A stretch of DNA of 64,000 nt, from contig UBNE01000012.1 of the NCBI GenBank assembly GCA_900466745.1, positions 62,001-126,000 on the forward strand. The letters are read 5' to 3'. Position 1 is the stretch's first letter. Every line of letters begins with the position of its first letter. The position numbers were made by a program, and so were the translations under genes. The notes under the pieces are model-generated. The model was not told where the DNA came from. It did no database searches and saw only the letters and a program-made list of their open reading frames with translations. Positions 12,102 to 21,540 of this stretch are shown here, piece by piece. Origin of the DNA: Hyphomicrobiales bacterium. GTDB lineage: Bacteria; Pseudomonadota; Alphaproteobacteria; Rhizobiales; Beijerinckiaceae.

Positions 12102-12400
12102 TCACTCCCGGACGCGATCGGACCTCACGAGAAACCTCCGCTCGCGTCCGTTATCGAGCGAGAACATGCCGCCGCGCCCCGGCACGACGTCGAGAATCAG
12201 GCGGGTATGCTCCAGGCCTCGAACTGCGCCGCGCCGATGTAGGACGGCGTCGCGCCAGAGCTTCTTCGGCGCGTAGCTGACCAGCAGGTTCTTGGTCTGC
12301 CGGCAGCGAGCATCATCTTGTGGGTCTCGCGGCCGATGCCCGGCTGCTTGTAGCCGCCGAAGGCCGGATAGGCATGGTAGCAGTTGGTCCAGAAGCGGCC
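12102..12400 (-). pseudogene. Fused remnant of aldehyde dehydrogenase and DUF779 genes
   Basis: Read on the minus strand, the first half encodes the C-terminal end of an aldehyde dehydrogenase: [27 protein letters not shown], then after a frameshift [15 protein letters not shown]. It runs directly into the C-terminal half of a DUF779 protein: [10 protein letters not shown], then after a one-base loss [20 protein letters not shown], ending at a TGA at 12102. DUF779 genes usually sit beside this type of aldehyde dehydrogenase, so a deletion has joined the two neighbours. At least two frameshifts and no start codon mean it cannot make a product. Confidence 0.85.
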
Positions 12401-12668
12401 AGTTTGAGCGTGAGGCGAAACATCCGCGCGGACGCCATCGTCTTCTTCCTCCGCTTAAGGCTCACGAAAAATCCGCGGTTTCTTCTTCCGATACAGCCTC
12501 CGGGACATTCAGCCTCCGCCCTGGCCATCGCTGACGCGAGGACCCCAAAACCGGGACAGAGGCGCATAATCGGCTGTTATGCATAAGGCATCAATTGGTA
12601 TTCGTTGTTTTGAGAATGCTTCGTCTAAGTTCTCCCTGCAGATCATCATTCTTGCGAAGTGGCCCGAA
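12401..12668. other. Leader region before the hydantoinase-like gene
   Basis: The stretch between the pseudogene and the next start codon is less GC-rich than its surroundings and holds no gene I can support. It contains the LysR-type repeat at 12565-12581 (listed separately). An in-frame ATG at 12579 would extend the next protein by 30 residues, but it overlaps that operator and the extra residues do not look like part of the enzyme. Confidence 0.5.
12565..12581 (+). promoter_or_regulatory. LysR-type operator CATAA-N7-TTATG, copy 1
   Basis: CATAA at 12565-12569 and TTATG at 12577-12581 form a perfect inverted repeat with a 7-base centre, the T-N11-A geometry of LysR binding sites. It lies 88 bp upstream of the hydantoinase-like start. 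Two more exact copies lie upstream of the other units of this cluster (19513 and 20488). Confidence 0.7.
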
Positions 12669-14018
12669 ATGTCCGATTTCGATCTCGTCCTGCGCGGCAA
12701 TATCGTGCTGTCCAACCACGTCATCGAAGACGGCCATGTCGCCGTCAGCGGCGGCAAGATCGGCAAGGTCGGCGCCGGCGCCCCGCCTTCCGCCCGGGAA
12801 ACCCAGGATTTCCGCGGCCACTGGATCATGCCGGGCGTGATCGACGGCCAGGTCCATTCCGGCAGCCAGGCCGATCACGAAGGCATCGGCATGTGCTCCC
12901 GCGCCGCGGCGGCCGGCGGCGTCACGGTCATGGTCGACATGCCCTATGACGAGCCCGAGCCCGTCACCAGCGCCAGGCTCTTCAACGCGAAGGTCGCGGT
13001 GGTCGAGCGCGACGCCCATGTCGATGTCGCGCTCTATGCCACGATCGCCGTCGAGAACGGGCTCCACGCCATTCCCGGGCTGGTGGAGGCAGGCGCCTGC
13101 GCCTTCAAGTTCTCGACCTTCGAGGCCAATCCGACGCGTTTTCCGCGCATCGGCGACGACACGCTCTACGAAGCCTTCAGGCTGATCGAGCCGACCGGCC
13201 TGCTCTGCGGCGTCCACAATCAGGACCAGGAGATGACGAGGCGCAACATCGCGAAGCTGATCGAGGCGGGCGACACCGGCCCGGACGCCTTCCTGCGCGC
13301 CCACACCGCACTGATCGAAAATCTCGCGACGGCCCGGATCTACGAGATCGGCGCCGAGACCGGCGCGCGCGCCCACGCCGTCCATGTCTCGACCGCGCGC
13401 GGCTTCGAGATCTGCAACATGTACAAGCGCGCCGGCCACAAGGCGACGGTCGAGAGCTGCGTGCAGTATTTCATGCTCAATGCCGAGGAGCACGGCCCGC
13501 GCTTCGGCGCCAGGATCAAGCACTACCCGCCGATCCGCCCCAAGGCCGAGAGCGACCTGCTCTGGAGCCATCTCGCCGCCGGCCATTGCGACTTCATCTC
13601 GTCGGATCACGTCTCCTGGGGGCTGGAGAAGAAGAGTGACCCGAACATCTTCAGGAACACCTCGGGCGGGCCGGGGATCGAGACCCTGCTGCCGGCGCTC
13701 TGGACCGGCTGCGAGGAGCACGGGCTCCCGCCCACCATCGTGGTGAAGCAGCTCTGCGAGGGCCCGGCGAAAGCCTTCCTGCTCGCCGATAAGGGCCGGC
13801 TCGAAGCGGGAGCCGATGCCGACATCGCCGTGCTGGAACCCGGCCGCTTCGTCCATGATCCGGGCAAGAGCCTCTCGGCCGTGAGGTGGAGCTCGATGGA
13901 AGGCCGCGAGCTCCGCGTCCGTGTCGCCGCCACCTATGTTCGCGGCCGGCTCGCCTGGGACGGTCAGCGGATCTGCAACAAGGCCGGAGACGGCCGCTTC
14001 CTGCGCCCCACGGCGTGA
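12669..14018 (+). CDS. Hydantoinase/allantoinase-like cyclic amidohydrolase
   Basis: A 449-residue metal-dependent amidohydrolase of the dihydroorotase/allantoinase/hydantoinase group. These enzymes open cyclic amides such as hydantoins, dihydropyrimidines or allantoin in the cytosol. Likely metal residues are Lys147 (carboxylated, CAFKFSTF), His183 (GVHNQD), His239 (HAVHVST) and Asp313 (ISSDHVSWG). The usual first HxH is Gln61-Val-His63 (PGVIDGQVHSGS), so one metal ligand is replaced. The ATG at 12669 starts the usual MSDFDLVLRG. It lies 6 bp before the carbamoylase-type gene, an order that suggests ring opening followed by carbamoyl removal. The substrate is inferred. Confidence 0.85.
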   Translation: MSDFDLVLRGNIVLSNHVIEDGHVAVSGGKIGKVGAGAPPSARETQDFRGHWIMPGVIDGQVHSGSQADHEGIGMCSRAAAAGGVTVMVDMPYDEPEPVTSARLFNAKVAVVERDAHVDVALYATIAVENGLHAIPGLVEAGACAFKFSTFEANPTRFPRIGDDTLYEAFRLIEPTGLLCGVHNQDQEMTRRNIAKLIEAGDTGPDAFLRAHTALIENLATARIYEIGAETGARAHAVHVSTARGFEICNMYKRAGHKATVESCVQYFMLNAEEHGPRFGARIKHYPPIRPKAESDLLWSHLAAGHCDFISSDHVSWGLEKKSDPNIFRNTSGGPGIETLLPALWTGCEEHGLPPTIVVKQLCEGPAKAFLLADKGRLEAGADADIAVLEPGRFVHDPGKSLSAVRWSSMEGRELRVRVAATYVRGRLAWDGQRICNKAGDGRFLRPTA

Positions 14019-14024
14019 GCTGCC

Positions 14025-15269
14025 ATGGCGATCGACCAGGACCGGCTCTGGCAGCGTCTCGAAACGCTCTCGCGGATCACTGACCCCGAGCGTCCCTGGA
14101 CCCGCCGCTCCTTCACGCCGCGCTTCCTCGAAGGCCGGGAATGGCTCGCGGCGCAGTTCCGAGGCGCCGGGCTGGAGACCGGGCTCGACGCGGCCGGCAA
14201 CCTCTTCGGCCGCCTCCCCGGCGCCGATCCCGCATTGAAGCCGATCCTGATCGGCTCGCATTCGGACACGGTGCCCTCCGGCGGCCGCTATGACGGCATC
14301 CTCGGCGTGATCGCGGCGCTGGAGGTCGCCCAGAGCCTCGGGGAGCGCGGCGAGCGCTTGCGCCATACGCTGGAGGTCGTCGACTTCCTCGCGGAGGAGC
14401 CCAGCGAGTTCGGCCTCTCCTGCATCGGCAGCCGCGCCCTCGCGGGAGCGCTGAGCGAGCAGCACCTCGCCCTCGCCCGCCCGGACGGCATGACGCTGCG
14501 CGACGGCATCGCCTTCGTCGGCGGCCGGCCGGATGAGATCGCCTCGGCCAGGCGGCCGGCGGATGGCGTCGCCGCCTATGTCGAGCTCCATATCGAGCAG
14601 GGCCGCGTGCTGGAGAACGAGCGCATCCCGATCGGGATCGTGACCGACATCGTCGGCATCCGCCGGGAGCGCATCACCGTCACCGGCCGGGCCGACCATG
14701 CCGGCGCAACGCCGATGCCGCTGCGCGCCGATGCGCTGGTCGGCGCCGCGAAGCTGGTCGAAGCCGCCCATGAGCGGGCGCTGGCGACGGCGCGCGACGA
14801 GCAGCCGCTGGTCGCGACCTTCGGGCGCATCGAGGTCAGCCCCAACGCGGCCAATGCCGTGCCGGGCGAAGCCGTGCTGACGCTGGAAGTCCGCTCCGGC
14901 AACGAAGCGGCGGTCGCGGCCTTCGGCGCCGGATTGCTGCGAGACCTGCGGCCAACGCTGGAGGCGCTGCGCCTCGCCATCGCGGTCGAACCGATCAGCC
15001 ATGTCGCGCCCACCGCCTGCGCAGCCGGGATCCGCAAGGCCATCGCCGATGCCGCAGCCTCGCTCGGGCTCGCCACGCGCAACCTGCCCAGCGGCGCCGG
15101 CCATGACGGCGTCTTCGTCGCCCGGACCGAACCGATCGGCATGATCTTCGTACCCTGCCTCGACGGACGCAGCCACGCGCCGGAGGAATCGATCACGCCC
15201 GGGCAGGCCGGCGACGGCGCGCGCGTGCTGGCCGAGACGGTGCGCCGGCTCGATGCCGGCCTGGGCTGA
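14025..15269 (+). CDS. Hydantoinase/carbamoylase-family amidase (N-carbamoyl-L-amino acid hydrolase or allantoate amidohydrolase)
   Basis: A 414-residue M20-type zinc/manganese amidohydrolase. It removes the carbamoyl or ureido group from N-carbamoyl-L-amino acids, N-carbamoyl-beta-alanine or allantoate. Metal ligands are visible: His79 and Asp90 in GSHSDTVPSGGRYDGILGV, the Glu pair near 124-125 (DFLAEEPSEFG), a His in the dimerisation region (YVELHIEQGRVLEN) and a C-terminal His in GRSHAPEE. It directly follows the hydantoinase-like gene and so should act on that enzyme's product. Whether the substrate is hydantoin- or allantoin-derived cannot be told. Confidence 0.88.
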   Translation: MAIDQDRLWQRLETLSRITDPERPWTRRSFTPRFLEGREWLAAQFRGAGLETGLDAAGNLFGRLPGADPALKPILIGSHSDTVPSGGRYDGILGVIAALEVAQSLGERGERLRHTLEVVDFLAEEPSEFGLSCIGSRALAGALSEQHLALARPDGMTLRDGIAFVGGRPDEIASARRPADGVAAYVELHIEQGRVLENERIPIGIVTDIVGIRRERITVTGRADHAGATPMPLRADALVGAAKLVEAAHERALATARDEQPLVATFGRIEVSPNAANAVPGEAVLTLEVRSGNEAAVAAFGAGLLRDLRPTLEALRLAIAVEPISHVAPTACAAGIRKAIADAAASLGLATRNLPSGAGHDGVFVARTEPIGMIFVPCLDGRSHAPEESITPGQAGDGARVLAETVRRLDAGLG

Positions 15270-15302
15270 AGCCCGCCCGGCGAACGACGCCCGCGGTCCG
15301 CC

Positions 15303-16805
15303 TCAGCGCAAGGGCGCCCCGTAACGCTCGACCCGATAGGGCTCGCGGGCGAGGCCGACGCAGAACCGCGCCACGGCTTCCTGCAGCCTTTCGGCGAGCA
15401 GCTTCATCGGCGCGTTGACCGCCGTCAGCCGCTCGCGCGCCGCCTCGGCCTGCTGCGCGAGCCTGGCCAGGTCGAGCGTCAAAAGGTGTCCGTCCCTGAC
15501 CACGAAGCGCCCGCCGATCATCACGTCGCGCACGGCGGTGCCGTCCTCGACATGGACGATCTGGTTCACCGTGTGGTTGTGCGGGAGCCAGTTGATATGG
15601 CCGAGGTCCACAAAGACGAGGTCGGCCTTGTAGCCGGTCGCGATCCGCCCGATACGGTCGAAGCCCAGCGCGCGGGCGCCGCCCTCGGTGGCCGCATGCA
15701 GGGCTTCCGGCGTGGTCAGCCAGCCGTCCACCTCCGGGCCGCGCACCTTCGACACGAAGGAGGCGAGCCGGGTCGCCTCGTACATGTTCTGATTGTCGCC
15801 GCTGTTGGAGCCGTCCGTTCCGATCGCCACATTGACGCCGGCCTCGAGCATGGCCCGAACATCGGCGAGCCCGCTGCCGAGGCGCATGTTGCTGGCGGGA
15901 TTATGCGCCACGGAAGCGCCATGGCCGGCGAGAATGCGCATATCCTCGTCATCGAGCCAGACGCCATGCGCCACGGTGAAGTCCGGCCCCAGGAGGCCGA
16001 GCCGGTCGAGATGGGCGGTCAGCGTACGGCCATAGCGCCTGATCCCCGAGAGCGCCTGGATCTTCGATTCCGAGACATGGCTGTGCAGGGCGAGGCCGTG
16101 GCGCCGGGCGCAGTCGCGGCAGGCGCCGAGAAAATCGTCGGTGCAGTGCAGGGGAATCGTCGGCGCCAGCGCGATCCTCAGCCTCTCGCCGTCGACGCGC
16201 CCGTCGCGGACGAAAGTCTCGAAGCCTTTCAGCGTCCGCTCATAGGGCTGCAGGCGGAAGCGGTCGACCTCGGCCCGCAGAGCTTCCGGCAGCGCCTCGT
16301 AGAGGCCGGGAACGGCCTGGTAGAGCGTCAGGTCCGCCACCATCGGCGCGATGGTCGCCCGCATGCCGACATCCCGATAGGCGCGTGCGATCGCCTCCAT
16401 GCCCTCCACCGTCGGCGCCGGCACCTCGAAGAACAGGTCGTAGCAAGCGGTGGTCCCCTTCAGGACCATCTCGGCACCGTTCAGCGCCGCCGAGAGATAC
16501 TTGTCCTCGAAACTGCGGTTGCCGCTGATCCAGGGGCCCGCGGCAAGCAGCAGCTCCAGCGACCAGCGGTCGCCCATCGCCTTGGCCAGCGCGCCATGCG
16601 CATGCGTATGGGCGTTGATCAGGCCGGCATGGATGAGCTTGCCGGCGGCATCGACGACCTGCGCGCCCTCCGGAGCGGCCAGCCCGCGCGGGCCGATCTC
16701 GCGGATCATGTCGCCCTCGAGCAGGAGGTCGACGGCGTCGGCCTGCGCCCGGCCCGGCAGCAGGACGAGCGCGTTGCGGATGACGGTGTAGAGCGCGCTC
16801 TTCAT
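15303..16805 (-). CDS. TRZ/ATZ-type amidohydrolase (deaminase-like)
   Basis: A 500-residue amidohydrolase of the chlorohydrolase/guanine deaminase/SAH deaminase superfamily. The metal site is visible: His66-Thr-His68 in GLINAHTHAHG, a His in LALHSHVSESK, a His in FTVAHGVWLDDEDM, and Asp in AIGTDGSNSGDNQN. Such enzymes deaminate or dechlorinate N-heterocycles. The ATG at 16805 gives a family-like start; the longer frame runs into the permease gene. It is the last gene of the ABC importer operon, 22 bp after the permease stop. It therefore probably acts on the imported compound. Confidence 0.85.
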   Translation of the reverse strand: MKSALYTVIRNALVLLPGRAQADAVDLLLEGDMIREIGPRGLAAPEGAQVVDAAGKLIHAGLINAHTHAHGALAKAMGDRWSLELLLAAGPWISGNRSFEDKYLSAALNGAEMVLKGTTACYDLFFEVPAPTVEGMEAIARAYRDVGMRATIAPMVADLTLYQAVPGLYEALPEALRAEVDRFRLQPYERTLKGFETFVRDGRVDGERLRIALAPTIPLHCTDDFLGACRDCARRHGLALHSHVSESKIQALSGIRRYGRTLTAHLDRLGLLGPDFTVAHGVWLDDEDMRILAGHGASVAHNPASNMRLGSGLADVRAMLEAGVNVAIGTDGSNSGDNQNMYEATRLASFVSKVRGPEVDGWLTTPEALHAATEGGARALGFDRIGRIATGYKADLVFVDLGHINWLPHNHTVNQIVHVEDGTAVRDVMIGGRFVVRDGHLLTLDLARLAQQAEAARERLTAVNAPMKLLAERLQEAVARFCVGLAREPYRVERYGAPLR

Positions 16806-16827
16806 GCTGGGCGACCCGCCATGTCCA

Positions 16828-17619
16828 TCAGCGCCGCTCCTCGGCGGCGGCCCAGGGGAAGAAGACCCGCTCGGCCACCACGATGAGCTGGAAAAGAACG
16901 ATGCCGAGCAGCGCCAGGACCAGCATCGCGCCAAAGGCGACAGGCACCTTGAAAAAGGCCGTCGCCGAGGTGATGAGGTAGCCGAGCCCGCGCTCGGCCG
17001 CGACGAATTCGCCGACCACGGCGCCCACGACCGACAGCGCGATCGCCGATTTCAGTCCCGAGAAAATGAAGGGGATCGAAAAGGGCAGCCGCACCCGGAA
17101 CAGCTCCTGCAGCTTGCTCGCCCGGCAGGAGCGCGCAAGCTCGATCAACTCCGACGGCACCGCGAGCAGGCCGGTCGTCATCGCGATCACCAGCGGAAAG
17201 AAGGCGACGAGGAAGGTCACGATCACGCGCGGCATCTCGTTGGGGCCGAGCATCACGACGAGGATCGGCGCGATCGCCACCTTCGGCACCGACTGCGTCA
17301 GCACCAGCAGGGGGTAGATCGCATCCGCCGCGAGCCGCGAGGACGAGATCAGCACGGCCAGGGGAAAGCTGACGGCGATCGACAGGAAGAACCCGAACAG
17401 CACCGTGCGCAGCGTCGCCACCATGTGCTCGCCGAGCTGCTGGCCGCCCATCGCCGCCATGTCCTCGACGATGCGCGAGGGCGACGGCAGCAGATACTCC
17501 GGAATGGCGAAGAGCCGGGCGCTCGCCTCCCACACCGCCATCAGCACGAGCAGCGCGAGCAGCGGGATCAGGAATTCGCGGCTCGCGCTCAGCCAGCCGG
17601 GGAGCCTAGTGTTCGACAT
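16828..17619 (-). CDS. ABC transporter permease (SsuC/TauC/NMT1-type)
   Basis: A 263-residue inner-membrane permease with about six transmembrane segments. It carries the binding-protein-dependent permease signature (EAA loop) around AARSCRASKLQELFRVRLPFSIPFI. It belongs to the family that moves sulfonates, taurine, nitrate or pyrimidine/thiamine precursors. Its start overlaps the end of the ATPase gene by 14 bp, so the two are translationally coupled. Substrate choice rests with the THI5/NMT1-like binding protein upstream. Confidence 0.9.
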   Translation of the reverse strand: MSNTRLPGWLSASREFLIPLLALLVLMAVWEASARLFAIPEYLLPSPSRIVEDMAAMGGQQLGEHMVATLRTVLFGFFLSIAVSFPLAVLISSSRLAADAIYPLLVLTQSVPKVAIAPILVVMLGPNEMPRVIVTFLVAFFPLVIAMTTGLLAVPSELIELARSCRASKLQELFRVRLPFSIPFIFSGLKSAIALSVVGAVVGEFVAAERGLGYLITSATAFFKVPVAFGAMLVLALLGIVLFQLIVVAERVFFPWAAAEERR

Positions 17620-18385
17620 CGAAGCGCGCCCCCTGTTCGCCGAAGATCAGGTCGCGGATGCGGCCCGTGCAGCGCTGGAATTCGGGATGGCCCGAGAGCG
17701 AGAAGTCGCGCGGCCGCGGAAGGTCGACGTCGATGATCTCGGCGATCCGACCGGGGCGCGGGGACATGACCACCACGCGGTCGGCCAGGATCACCGCCTC
17801 GGGAATGGAATGGGTGACGAAGAGAATGGTCTTGGGCGTGTTGGACCAGATCCGCAACAGCTCGATCGTCATGATCTCGCGCGTCAGCGCGTCGAGCGCG
17901 CCGAAGGGCTCGTCCATCAGCAGGATGTCGGGATCGTGCACCAGCGCACGGCAGATCGCGGCGCGCTGCTGCATGCCGCCGGAGAGCTGGCGGGGGCGGT
18001 GCTCGGCGAAATCGGCGATGCCGGCCACCTTGAGCAGGTCCTTCGCCCGGCGCCGCGCCGCCTCGTCGGCGCGGCCCATGATGGTCGACGGAAACATCAC
18101 GTTCTCGACGATCGTCGCCCAGGGCAGCAGGGTCGGCGCCTGGAAGACGATGCCGGTGTCCTGGCGCGGCCCGGTGACCCGCTCGTCGCGGATGAAGATG
18201 CTCCCTTCCGTCGGCGCGACGAGGCCCGAAACCAGCCGCAGCAGCGTGGACTTGCCGCAGCCGGAGGGACCGACCAGCGTGACGATCTCGCGATCCTTCA
18301 CCGTCAGGTCGATGCCCTGCAGCGCTCTCACGCCGCCATTGCCGACCGCGCCGAAGACCTGACCGACCTGCTTGATGTCAATCAT
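17606..18385 (-). CDS. ABC transporter ATP-binding protein (SsuB/TauB-type)
   Basis: A 259-residue ATPase. Walker A is GPSGCGKST near residue 40, the Q-loop is VFQAPTLLPW, the signature is LSGGMQQRAAICRAL, Walker B is DILLMDEPFGALD and the switch His is in FVTHSIPEAV. The family energises nitrate/sulfonate/taurine/pyrimidine importers. It sits between the binding-protein gene (37 bp away) and the overlapping permease gene, forming one importer operon. Confidence 0.92.
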   Translation of the reverse strand: MIDIKQVGQVFGAVGNGGVRALQGIDLTVKDREIVTLVGPSGCGKSTLLRLVSGLVAPTEGSIFIRDERVTGPRQDTGIVFQAPTLLPWATIVENVMFPSTIMGRADEAARRRAKDLLKVAGIADFAEHRPRQLSGGMQQRAAICRALVHDPDILLMDEPFGALDALTREIMTIELLRIWSNTPKTILFVTHSIPEAVILADRVVVMSPRPGRIAEIIDVDLPRPRDFSLSGHPEFQRCTGRIRDLIFGEQGARFDVEH

Positions 18386-18422
18386 CGATAGGCCTCCAGG
18401 GCCGCCAGTATCCGCCGGATGC

Positions 18423-19430
18423 TCACTGCCTGGCCGGGAGGAAGGACATGTCGACCGCCGTCTGCGGATCGACCGAGATATCCAGGTCCTGGGCCTTCGC
18501 GACGACCTCGTAGGTCTTCTTCAGCCGCTCGGCCGTGATGCCGCCGACACCCGCCTCCCTGGCATGGTCGGTGAAGATGAAAGCGAGGGTCGCCTTCAGG
18601 CTGCCCAGGCAGTCGTCGAGGTCGACCTGCTGGTTGGCCTTCACATGGGCCTCGCAGGCCGCCTGCGGATCGGCGCGCGCGGCATCCCAGGCCTCCAGCG
18701 TCGCCTTCATGAAATGGCGCAGCATCTCGGGTCGCTTCTGAATGGTCGCTTCGGAAGTGTGAAACGCCAGCGAGTAGATCGCGAAGCCAGCCTCGACGAA
18801 GGGTAGGAAGGCGAGCTCCTTGCCGGCCTTCTGCGCCTGCTTGTTCTGGTAGTAGAAATTGGTCGAGTAGGACGGCATCGCATCGATCTTGCCGGCGATC
18901 AGCAGCGGCCCCATCGCCGAGCCGTCAACGGTCACCCATTCGATCTTGCTCGGATCGGTGTGGGCGGCGGCCGCCACTGCCGGGAAGTAGAGCCTGTGGC
19001 TGTTGCCCGGCGTGATGCCGATCTTCTTGCCTTCCAAGCCGCTGAAGCTCGTGATCCCCGAATCCTTGAGCACGAAAAGGGAATGGGGCGAGTGAGCATA
19101 GACCGCGCCGATCATCTTCAGCGGCACGGAACTGCGCTGGCGGGCGGTGAAGAGCGCCGAGATGTCGGCCATGCCGATATCGGCGGCTCCGCCGGCAACC
19201 TTGCTGAGCGTGTCGCCCGAGCCGTTGCCGCGGCTGATCCGAAGGGTGATGCCGTTGCGCGCATAGATCCCCGAGGCGATGCCGGCATAGTAGGGCGCGT
19301 AATCGCCCGTCGGAATCCAGTCGAGCATGAGGTGGACGTTGTCGGCGGCCCGCGCCGCTCCCGTCGCGGCGCCGAGCGCGACCGCGACTCCGAGGACGGC
19401 CCTGGCCGCGGTCGACATGAACTTGAACAT
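18423..19430 (-). CDS. NMT1/THI5-type ABC substrate-binding protein
   Basis: A 335-residue periplasmic binding protein. The ATG at 19430 has an AAAGGA ribosome site and gives a good signal peptide (residues 1-28, ending AARA before ADN). The mature protein opens VHLMLDWIPTGDYAPYYAGIASGIYARNG. This is the hallmark of the NMT1/THI5-like family, which binds pyrimidine precursors, N-heterocycles or ureido compounds. First gene of the importer/deaminase operon; a LysR-type repeat lies 83 bp upstream. The ligand is unknown, but the neighbours suggest a hydantoin-, pyrimidine- or purine-derived ring. Confidence 0.88.
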   Translation of the reverse strand: MFKFMSTAARAVLGVAVALGAATGAARAADNVHLMLDWIPTGDYAPYYAGIASGIYARNGITLRISRGNGSGDTLSKVAGGAADIGMADISALFTARQRSSVPLKMIGAVYAHSPHSLFVLKDSGITSFSGLEGKKIGITPGNSHRLYFPAVAAAAHTDPSKIEWVTVDGSAMGPLLIAGKIDAMPSYSTNFYYQNKQAQKAGKELAFLPFVEAGFAIYSLAFHTSEATIQKRPEMLRHFMKATLEAWDAARADPQAACEAHVKANQQVDLDDCLGSLKATLAFIFTDHAREAGVGGITAERLKKTYEVVAKAQDLDISVDPQTAVDMSFLPARQ

Positions 19431-19512
19431 CACGATTATCCTTTTGCCGGTTCCCTTCTCAGCAGAAGGAACCGCAGCGCGGATCAAATCAAATACCAAT
19501 TTTTCGCGAAAT

Positions 19513-19529
19513 CATAATGGCGTGTTATG
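19513..19529 (-). promoter_or_regulatory. LysR-type operator CATAA-N7-TTATG, copy 2
   Basis: CATAA at 19513-19517 and TTATG at 19525-19529 form the same inverted repeat as copies 1 and 3, with a different 7-base centre. It lies between the LysR stop and the ABC binding-protein start, 83 bp upstream of the latter. The conserved arms with varying centre argue for a protein-binding site. Confidence 0.7.
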
Positions 19530-19572
19530 GCCGCTTCCGGCCTCCTCATTCGATCGCCTTCCGCATCGCCCG

Positions 19573-20484
19573 TCATGAAGGAAAGGCGTCGTCGGGCGCC
19601 GCCGGCAGCAGCGTGCGCAAACCGTCGACGAAGCTGCGGGCGATGCGCGACAGCGGCTCGATCCGCGACGACAGCAGATGGGGCCGCGTCGCCATCTTGG
19701 GCACCAGCGGGCGCGACCGGATATTCGGCCAGGCATTGTCCATCAGCACGAAATCATCGACGATGGCGACACCCCCGCCGGCCTGGACGAGGCAGCAGGC
19801 ATTGGGCGTGAAGCGCACTTGCGCATTGAAGCGGATGGGTTTCGGCGCGCCGCTCAGCGCGCGGCTGACGACCATGCCGTAGGGCGTCTGCGAACCGTAG
19901 CCGATGATCGGATAGGGCACGAGGTCGGCCGGCTTCACCACCCGCTTCTCGCCGAGCGGATGGCCGGCGGGAAAGATCACCTGGAGGCGGCCTTCGCCGA
20001 TCTGCGTCGCCTTGACCGTCGGATCGTCGACCGCCATCGACGTCACCGCGAGATCGGCGCGATGGCTCGCGATGCGGGCGATCAGGTCGGCGAGCGTCAG
20101 GATCTCGAGCTCGACGCGCACCTCCGGATGAGCCTGGCGAAAGCGGGCAATCGCCTTCGGAACCAGCATATGGCCGACGCTGGGGCTCGCGACCAGCCGG
20201 ACCGAGCCGGCCGCGCCGCGCCGCAGCTCATCGGCGAGCTCGTTGACCCGGGCCACCCCCTGGTGGACCTGCTCGACCTCGGCGAACAGCAGGCGCGCCT
20301 CGGGCGTCGGCTGCACCCTGCCCTTGACGCGCTCGAAGAGGGACAATCCGAGCCGGTCTTCCGTATAGGACAGAAGCCGGCTGATGGCGGGCTGGGAGAC
20401 CGACAGCAGCCGCGCCGCCCCGCTGATCGACCCCGTCGCCATCACCGCGCGGAACATCTCGATCTGCCGCAGATTCATCGCCAT
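19573..20484 (-). CDS. LysR-family transcriptional regulator of the hydantoin-like cluster
   Basis: About 303 residues. The N-terminal helix-turn-helix is MNLRQIEMFRAVMATGSISGAARLLSVSQPAISRLL. The C-terminal co-inducer domain begins about residue 90 (GSVRLVASPSVGHMLVPKA). The ATG at 20484 is chosen because a GGGAGG site lies 9 bases upstream. The ATG at 20490 would overlap the operator and be too close to that site. It lies between the ABC operon and the divergent D-carbamoylase. A CATAA-N7-TTATG repeat covers its own start region, so autoregulation is likely. The co-inducer is probably a pathway intermediate. Confidence 0.88.
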   Translation of the reverse strand: MAMNLRQIEMFRAVMATGSISGAARLLSVSQPAISRLLSYTEDRLGLSLFERVKGRVQPTPEARLLFAEVEQVHQGVARVNELADELRRGAAGSVRLVASPSVGHMLVPKAIARFRQAHPEVRVELEILTLADLIARIASHRADLAVTSMAVDDPTVKATQIGEGRLQVIFPAGHPLGEKRVVKPADLVPYPIIGYGSQTPYGMVVSRALSGAPKPIRFNAQVRFTPNACCLVQAGGGVAIVDDFVLMDNAWPNIRSRPLVPKMATRPHLLSSRIEPLSRIARSFVDGLRTLLPAAPDDAFPS

Positions 20485-20487
20485 GCC

Positions 20488-20504
20488 CATAACCCTCCCT
20501 TATG
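20488..20504. promoter_or_regulatory. LysR-type operator CATAA-N7-TTATG, copy 3
   Basis: CATAA at 20488-20492 and TTATG at 20500-20504 flank the 7-base CCCTCCC, which is also the LysR ribosome site on the opposite strand. The site lies between the LysR gene and the divergent D-carbamoylase gene (start 20599). Binding here would repress the regulator and could activate the hydrolase. Confidence 0.7.
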
Positions 20505-20598
20505 AATGGCGCGGAAATTAGCATATGCTTGTTCTGGGAGCACTCGGCTAGATTCTCCAGGGCCCGCATGGGGCGCGCCTTGCCATGGAGTTCTATCG

Positions 20599-21540
20599 AT
20601 GTCGCGCATTCTCACCGTCGCTGCGGCTCAGCTCGGCCCTATCCATCAGGCTGACGACCGTGCTTCGGTCGTCAGCCGGATGATCGCCCTGATGGAGCAG
20701 GCGAAGATGCGCGGCGCCGATTTCGTGGTCTACCCCGAGCTCGCCCTGACGACCTTCTTTCCGCGCTGGCATTACGAGGATCGCGCCCAGGCGGATCGCT
20801 GGTTCGAGACCGCCATGCCCGGCCCGCAGACGCAGCCGCTGTTCGACAGGGCGCGGGAGCTGCAGATCGCGATGAATTTCGGCTATGCCGAGCTGACGCC
20901 GGAAGGGCGGCACTTCAACAGCTCGATCCTCGTCGACAAGACCGGGCGAATCGCCGGCAAATACCGCAAGGTGCATTTGCCGGGCCATGCCGAATACGAC
21001 CCCAGCCGGGCGCATCAGCACCTCGAAAAGCGGTATTTCGAGCCCGGCGACCTGGGTTTCCCGGTCTGGGCTTTCGAAGGCGGCCTGGTCGGCATGGCGA
21101 TCTGCAATGATCGACGGTGGCCCGAGACCTATCGCATCATGGGGCTCCAGGGCGTCGAGATGATCGTGCTGGGCTACAACACGCCGACCGCGAACGGCCA
21201 TTCCAGCACGGAAACCCTGGCCGATCGCCTCTTCCACCATCGCCTGTCGGTGCAGGCCGGCGCCTATCAGAACTCGACCTGGGTGGTAGCCGTTGCCAAG
21301 GCCGGGGTGGAGGACGGGCATGCCCTGTTCGGCGGCACGCTGATCGCCGGGCCGGACGGCAAGATCGTCGGCGAGCTCGACCATGAGGAGGACGGGCTGC
21401 TCGTCCATGCCTGCGATCTCGACGCCACGCGCTTCGGCAAGGAGACGATCTTCAATTTTGCAGCGCATAGGCGCGTCGAGCACTATGGGCTCATCACCTC
21501 GCGCACGGGGAGCGGTGCCCCGCTGGGACGCGCCGTCTGA
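20599..21540 (+). CDS. N-carbamoyl-D-amino acid hydrolase (nitrilase superfamily)
   Basis: A 313-residue carbon-nitrogen hydrolase closely resembling the Agrobacterium N-carbamoyl-D-amino-acid amidohydrolase. The catalytic triad is Glu47 (FVVYPELALTTFFPRWH), Lys124 (KYRKVHLPGH) and Cys169 (GMAICNDRRWPETYR). The conserved blocks HLEKRYFEPGDLGFPV and IFNFAAHR...HYGLI also match that enzyme as I recall it. It converts N-carbamoyl-D-amino acids to D-amino acids, CO2 and ammonia. The ATG at 20599 fits the family start MSRILTVAAAQLGP. It is divergent from the LysR gene across operator copy 3. Confidence 0.92.
   Translation: MSRILTVAAAQLGPIHQADDRASVVSRMIALMEQAKMRGADFVVYPELALTTFFPRWHYEDRAQADRWFETAMPGPQTQPLFDRARELQIAMNFGYAELTPEGRHFNSSILVDKTGRIAGKYRKVHLPGHAEYDPSRAHQHLEKRYFEPGDLGFPVWAFEGGLVGMAICNDRRWPETYRIMGLQGVEMIVLGYNTPTANGHSSTETLADRLFHHRLSVQAGAYQNSTWVVAVAKAGVEDGHALFGGTLIAGPDGKIVGELDHEEDGLLVHACDLDATRFGKETIFNFAAHRRVEHYGLITSRTGSGAPLGRAV

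Follow-up and report, generated by a model that had tools for sequence, protein, structure and literature searches.

A 64,000-nucleotide stretch from a bacterium of the order Hyphomicrobiales (contig UBNE01000012.1, positions 62,001 to 126,000; hereafter the window) carries a gene cluster in which a LysR-type regulator is accompanied by three units: a hydantoinase/carbamoylase pair of the ErtD and ErtE families, an operon for an ABC importer and a TRZ/ATZ-type deaminase, and a D-carbamoylase gene divergent from lysR. Each unit is preceded by a copy of the inverted repeat CATAA-N7-TTATG (Table 1). A first-pass annotation of the window had proposed that these repeats are the operators of the LysR protein and delimit its regulon. 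Comparison of genomes strongly supports the reading of the repeats as LysR operators. Very probably, the three copies are directional, two-part operators through which the LysR protein of the cluster would activate the three units.

Table 1. Genes and proposed operators of the cluster (positions are those of the window)
Feature	Position	Strand	Remarks
Operator 1 dyad CATAA-N7-TTATG	12565-12581 (core 12566-12580)	+	points to hydantoinase/carbamoylase unit; scan, orthologous sites
Operator 1 second element GGTAT (proposed activation half-site)	12597-12601	+	21 bp from TTAT arm
Hydantoinase, ErtD family (hydantoin-5-propionate amidohydrolase)	12669-14018	+	NF058538, 666 bits (cut-off 600)
N-carbamoyl-L-glutamate amidohydrolase, ErtE family	14025-15269	+	NF058540, 591 bits (cut-off 520)
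TRZ/ATZ-type amidohydrolase/deaminase	15303-16805	-	last gene of importer unit, no site of its own; domain and structure matches
ABC importer permease	16828-17619	-	
ABC importer ATPase	17606-18385	-	
NMT1/THI5-like substrate-binding protein	18423-19430	-	start 19430 from orthologue alignment
Operator 2 second element GGTAT	19493-19497	-	
Operator 2 dyad	19513-19529 (core 19514-19528)	-	points to importer/deaminase unit
LysR-type regulator	19573-20484	-	helix-turn-helix PF00126, PF03466; conserved start 20484
Operator 3 dyad	20488-20504 (core 20489-20503)	+	points to D-carbamoylase
Operator 3 second element AGCAT	20520-20524	+	
D-carbamoylase (CN_hydrolase)	20599-21540	+	best solved match N-carbamoyl-D-amino-acid hydrolase, E 4.5e-116

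A pattern scan of the window returned exactly three copies of CATAA-N7-TTATG, all where the first-pass annotation had placed them, and no match appeared in 100 dinucleotide shuffles. Every other site in the window has at least two arm mismatches, in agreement with the annotation, which had noted no further copy in the other intergenic regions. The genome-wide count that it had suggested showed the motif to be rare and clustered at these genes: five copies are present in all 4,489,033 bases of the genome, three of them within 8 kb in the window cluster, against none for a reversed-pattern control. Of the remaining two, one is found where a GcvA-like LysR gene starts (C46), the other among phage-like genes (C69), both labels being assigned by eye from translations. 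The motif as first proposed stood in part. Among 51 distinct sites in the 22 genomes examined (19 of the genus that have this LysR, two others of the order, and Reyranella), the outer C..G pair is complete in just 11, so that the conserved core is ATAA-N7-TTAT. This shorter core is not specific by itself, since the genome contains nine such sites (three in the cluster) against five for the reversed control. Shortness of the arms and this modest excess would be expected of chance palindromes in AT-rich intergenic DNA, an explanation to which we give practically no credence: besides the shuffles, three dyads were not reached in any of 2000 first-order resamplings of the three intergenic regions, and the conservation of the sites across the 22 genomes contradicts it.

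This conservation was assessed by searching for the core within 350 bp upstream of each gene. The site precedes lysR in 22 of 22 genomes, the binding-protein gene in 6 of 6, the gene for a thiohydantoin desulfurase in 17 of 17 and the D-carbamoylase gene in 19 of 22. A look upstream of orthologues had been recommended in the first-pass annotation; there, the sites are conserved in the 22 genomes and their centres divergent. Most of the missing sites are explained by operon structure. ErtE (0/21) and the deaminase (0/6) never have one, and the three D-carbamoylase genes without a site (G273, G360 and Reyranella) follow ErtD or ErtE in one unit. As for ErtD, it has a site in 8 of 22 genomes: all five in which no desulfurase gene precedes it, and 3 of the 17 with a desulfurase. 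In the other 14 of these 17, ErtD lacks the site and the desulfurase is preceded by one instead (in G023 contigs are broken and the adjacency of desulfurase and ErtD is not shown). Altogether, 47 of 47 target genes heading a unit have the site (17 desulfurase, 6 binding protein, 19 D-carbamoylase, 5 ErtD), and the site appears largely to track the leading gene under operon rearrangement.

When site-bearing promoters were aligned on the dyad, a second element became apparent. All 50 promoters, which were chosen for having the dyad (19 D-carbamoylase, 17 desulfurase, 8 ErtD, 6 binding protein), have the sequence RGYAT precisely at positions +17 to +21 counted from the dyad, and no other shift between -8 and +8 gives it in any of them. 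From the TAT of the dyad to the YAT of this element the step is 21 bp, or two helical turns. That three different window promoters agree is cleaner evidence for this element than the count of 50. At the three window sites RGYAT is found in one direction and not in the reverse; each site is therefore directional, and site 3 points to the D-carbamoylase gene, not to lysR. The exact composite of dyad and RGYAT is absent from 200,301 control bases. Elsewhere in the genome there are six exact core sites (at the GcvA-like LysR start, at an OxyR-like start, among phage-like genes and at three places on C33/C53, labelled by eye); all lack RGYAT in both directions and were rejected as extra regulon members.

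With start codons set by aligning orthologues, the dyad centre lies 96 bp from that of the hydantoinase, 91 bp from that of the binding protein and 103 bp from that of the D-carbamoylase, which bears out the earlier view that each copy stands upstream of a different unit. The starts of the long open reading frames at 12579 and 20506, in or beside sites, are unlikely to be the true ones, and the aligned starts were used in their place. The dyad-aligned promoters have no conserved -35 box; a -10-like signal, about CTANNNT, lies at about +45 to +50. Relative to the transcription start that we infer from this signal, the dyad would be near -64 and the half-site near -38, a layout that would match the classical recognition-site/activation-site arrangement of LysR activators. 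One might instead envisage that the regulator is mainly a repressor whose sites block the polymerase until an inducer releases it. We regard this as very unlikely: overlap of site 3 with the ribosome-binding region of lysR (see below) would suit autorepression, but in the promoters of the structural genes about 45 bp separate the end of the dyad from the -10-like element downstream of it (itself weakly defined), and a half-site near the expected -35 position, with no conserved -35 consensus, is the usual activator layout.

A peculiarity of site 3 is its position relative to lysR. The start codon at 20484, already favoured in the first-pass annotation, finds support in an in-frame ATG or GTG at this position in 22/22 genomes, window included; neither the ATG at 20490, within the site, nor the later ATG at 20478 is conserved among them. 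Four bases separate the core of site 3 from this start, and the seven-base centre of the site is G-rich on the lysR strand (GGGAGGG in the window). For the 22 lysR-proximal sites, which are not phylogenetically independent, the mean predicted pairing energy with the 16S tail is -5.28 kcal/mol, as compared to -2.14 for the opposite strand and -2.38 for other sites. From the G-rich centre and this pairing, the operator coincides with the apparent Shine-Dalgarno region of lysR. Such an overlap would fit autorepression of lysR, while the second element faces the D-carbamoylase gene.

Occurrence of the site follows occurrence of the regulator. This LysR (at least 62% identity) is present in 19 of 67 genomes of the genus, the own genome included, a count that omits one genome whose sole match has 42% identity; ErtD is present in the identical 19. 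The D-carbamoylase orthologue has the site in 19 of 19 genomes with this LysR and in 0 of the 11 loci fetched from genomes without it, out of 26 matches at 70-76% identity. Occurrences of ATAAY-N5-RTTAT (80 in the 19 genomes with the LysR against 66 in the 48 without) are only supporting. The rarity of the motif, its conservation at orthologues and its absence from these 11 loci all argue for the initial assignment of operator and regulon to the window LysR. In three genomes the desulfurase-ErtD-ErtE genes are separated from the intact LysR, being on another contig (G007, G054) or 1.75 Mb apart (G015); the unlinked desulfurase and ErtD genes each keep a site. The adjacent LysR of the desulfurase-linked type in G015 is broken over several frames (L107 11645-12403) and the operators beside it are intact, while in G007 and G054 no LysR of this clade is detectable in the 20 kb fetched with the desulfurase units. 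Since sites are kept where the local LysR is broken or undetected, the unlinked regulator is their simplest reader.

Outside the genus, a search of 397 genomes of the order, limited to five scored candidates per genome, found the LysR in two genomes besides the own one. Eight distant ErtD loci from the class other than the window's (seven at 43-47% and one at 68% identity to the window ErtD) have no site even with one arm mismatch allowed; the site thus does not belong to ErtD genes in general. The 11 members of the group included in a tree of 44 LysR proteins fall together in a single supported clade, and each of them has the composite at least once. Outside the clade, the composite was found in this set only at L011, L139 and L143, in the latter two with one arm mismatch. 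Over helix-turn-helix residues 1-62 the window protein shares 54-61 residues with four clade members (87-98% identity), against 56-82% over the remainder. Among 29 loci of more distant relatives across the phylum (30-46% identity) the composite occurs in two, with one arm mismatch; a one-mismatch composite also lies before a binding-protein gene next to a 48% LysR relative in L053. On this comparison, the whole LysR clade goes with this operator, under which the thiohydantoin desulfurase units would also fall.

The window protein has both domains of its family (PF00126, 65.8 bits; PF03466, 123.1 bits) and no solved relative at E 1e-20. In PMC12609908, LysR-type regulators are described with recognition and activation sites (RBS/ABS operators), a classical tetramer and a sliding-dimer model. 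The present system resembles what is given there in its HTH_1 and LysR_substrate domains, its divergent target, its T-N11-A dyad (site 3 in the window, lying upstream of both the divergent target and lysR, and upstream of lysR in all genomes examined) and a second site near the inferred -35; it differs in having just one conserved RGYAT half-site, always at a distance of 21 bp, and in that the dyad next to lysR also serves as the apparent Shine-Dalgarno region of this gene. As a sequence, the dyad has a precedent. For CynR, of the Escherichia coli cyanate operon, PMC5002191 gives a 15-bp motif, ATAA-n7-TTAT, identical to the present consensus. This identity, and the presence of the same dyad at the starts of other LysR-type genes of the genome, raise the possibility that the sites belong to another or second LysR-type regulator (GcvA-like or CynR-like, for instance) sharing the box, the local LysR controlling only itself. 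We consider this highly unlikely: RGYAT is missing at the GcvA-like and OxyR-like sites, the distribution of the D-carbamoylase site follows this LysR, and the window protein scores 74.5 bits on the CynR model NF008416, far under the cut-off of 277. On that score its identification as CynR was rejected; its target genes also differ from those of CynR.

Several points weigh against attributing the sites to the local LysR as an activator. ATAA-N7-TTAT is a generic box of LysR-type regulators, and the GcvA-like and OxyR-like genes have dyads at their starts. The orthologous promoters are not independent, and 50/50 and 22/22 overstate the number of events. The comparison with LysR-minus genomes covers 11 of the 26 matches at 70-76% identity, next to which paralogues at 56-60% are present in most genomes. 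The -10-like signal is weak (0.67-0.93 bit) and, by eye, unclear in the binding-protein promoters. The second element is missing from some dyads: in L049 from a copy lying past the 3' end of lysR, and in L110 both from the copy next to lysR and from a copy preceding a further binding-protein gene. Finally, in G007, G015 and G054 ErtD lies behind the desulfurase gene and has an extra site of its own, an exception to the rule that only genes heading a unit carry it.

With these points considered, the cluster is most likely a classical LysR activator regulon. The sites, their second element, the co-occurrence with the regulator and the link to genes heading a unit are observed; binding, activation, start point and inducer we infer, and on this basis the system would work as follows. 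The recognition dyad ATAA-N7-TTAT would be centred about 64 bp before the transcription start, with the RGYAT half-site two helical turns downstream, beside a promoter without recognisable -35 box. An inducer acting with LysR would activate the ErtD-ErtE pair, the importer/deaminase operon and the D-carbamoylase gene. At site 3, LysR would cover the ribosome-binding region of its own gene and cause autorepression simultaneously with D-carbamoylase activation. The regulon would feed hydantoin-5-propionate-type compounds to glutamate. A LysR protein so far nameless is in this way assigned an operator, a direction of control and a set of targets, and the composite motif has the specificity needed for predicting further regulon members elsewhere. 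Beyond the first-pass annotation, the comparison adds the RGYAT half-site, the weaker outer C/G, the ErtD/ErtE identity and the link between clade and operator, desulfurase units included.

By the names of their models, ErtD and ErtE would carry out the last steps from ergothioneine to glutamate; the regulator is tied to enzymes named for the end of ergothioneine/hydantoin breakdown. As in ergothioneine utilisation, the window proteins exceed the curated cut-offs and the same operator precedes the desulfurase gene in 17 genomes of the genus; the difference is that here the operator goes with an NMT1-type importer, a TRZ/ATZ deaminase and a D-carbamoylase. A search of the own genome with the thiohydantoin desulfurase model NF058529 gave no match at E 0.001. 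Ergothioneine itself was rejected on this ground as the substrate of the window cluster, and the pathway may be fed differently from the ergothioneine route. The best solved match of the deaminase is annotated as 8-oxoguanine deaminase / hydroxydechloroatrazine ethylaminohydrolase. The D-carbamoylase shows near full-length similarity (residues 1-304 of 313) to solved N-carbamoyl-D-amino-acid hydrolases; with these as its best solved match and 133 bits on TIGR03381 against a cut-off of 410, its identification as N-carbamoylputrescine amidase (AguB) was rejected. Judging the direction of the pathway from family names and general ergothioneine biochemistry, the cluster probably turns hydantoin-type nitrogen compounds into glutamate. 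The steps shared by the two cluster types leave few compounds as possible inducers; being intermediates of both, hydantoin-5-propionate or N-carbamoyl-glutamate would most plausibly fill this role. The available text of PMC13405746 names ergothionase and thiourocanic acid, not hydantoin, and is neutral on the pathway. Among the open-licence papers listed by our literature searches, we found no LysR regulator for ErtD/ErtE, thiohydantoin or ergothioneine breakdown, many subscription papers lying outside this scope.

A broader scheme is possible, if doubtful. The LysR clade might be dedicated to the hydantoin-5-propionate branch, keeping one strict directional operator while the hydantoin-making enzyme is swapped (desulfurase versus TRZ/ATZ deaminase plus importer). 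The window might then represent an undescribed route in which an imported, creatinine-like imino-hydantoin is deaminated to hydantoin, with the regulator sensing the common intermediate and its autoregulatory operator doubling as the lysR Shine-Dalgarno region.

Some features of related loci deserve mention. Thiohydantoin desulfurase-ErtD-ErtE clusters are found in L106-L108 and L040-L052; that of L043, the only one given a detailed annotation, also has an amino-acid-type ABC importer, a D-hydantoinase-like protein, an Asp/Glu/hydantoin racemase, a flavin reductase and an FAD oxidase. The ErtE alignment of G054 falls in two pieces (L106 10338-11580), and the gene may be interrupted. In G007 (L038 10556-10896) and G015 (L039 9363-9564) the importer operon is lost and a deaminase remnant lies beside lysR, operator 2 and its second element being kept. 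The extra dyad of L110 (14284-14298; same region as L009 6463-6477) precedes an amino-acid-type binding-protein gene divergent from ErtD and has no RGYAT in either direction.

As to other repeats, the copy at the start of the GcvA-like LysR gene reads CATAAGGCACCCTTATG (L118 4810-4826; G000:C46), and ATAATTAAAACTTAT (L116 3040-3054; G000:C36) overlaps the start codon of the OxyR-like gene. Among the matches listed, a CATAAG-N5-CTTATG site occurs in many genomes of the genus and is possibly a second, distinct LysR operator family. In the window, a perfect palindrome, TTATGCATAA (12577-12586), overlaps the right arm of site 1 and does not occur at sites 2 and 3. At its 3' end the D-carbamoylase gene is overlapped by an AraC-type open reading frame (PF12833; 21383-22036) in a different frame, and the minus strand at 12120-12430 looks, by eye, like the remnant of an aldehyde dehydrogenase C-terminus.

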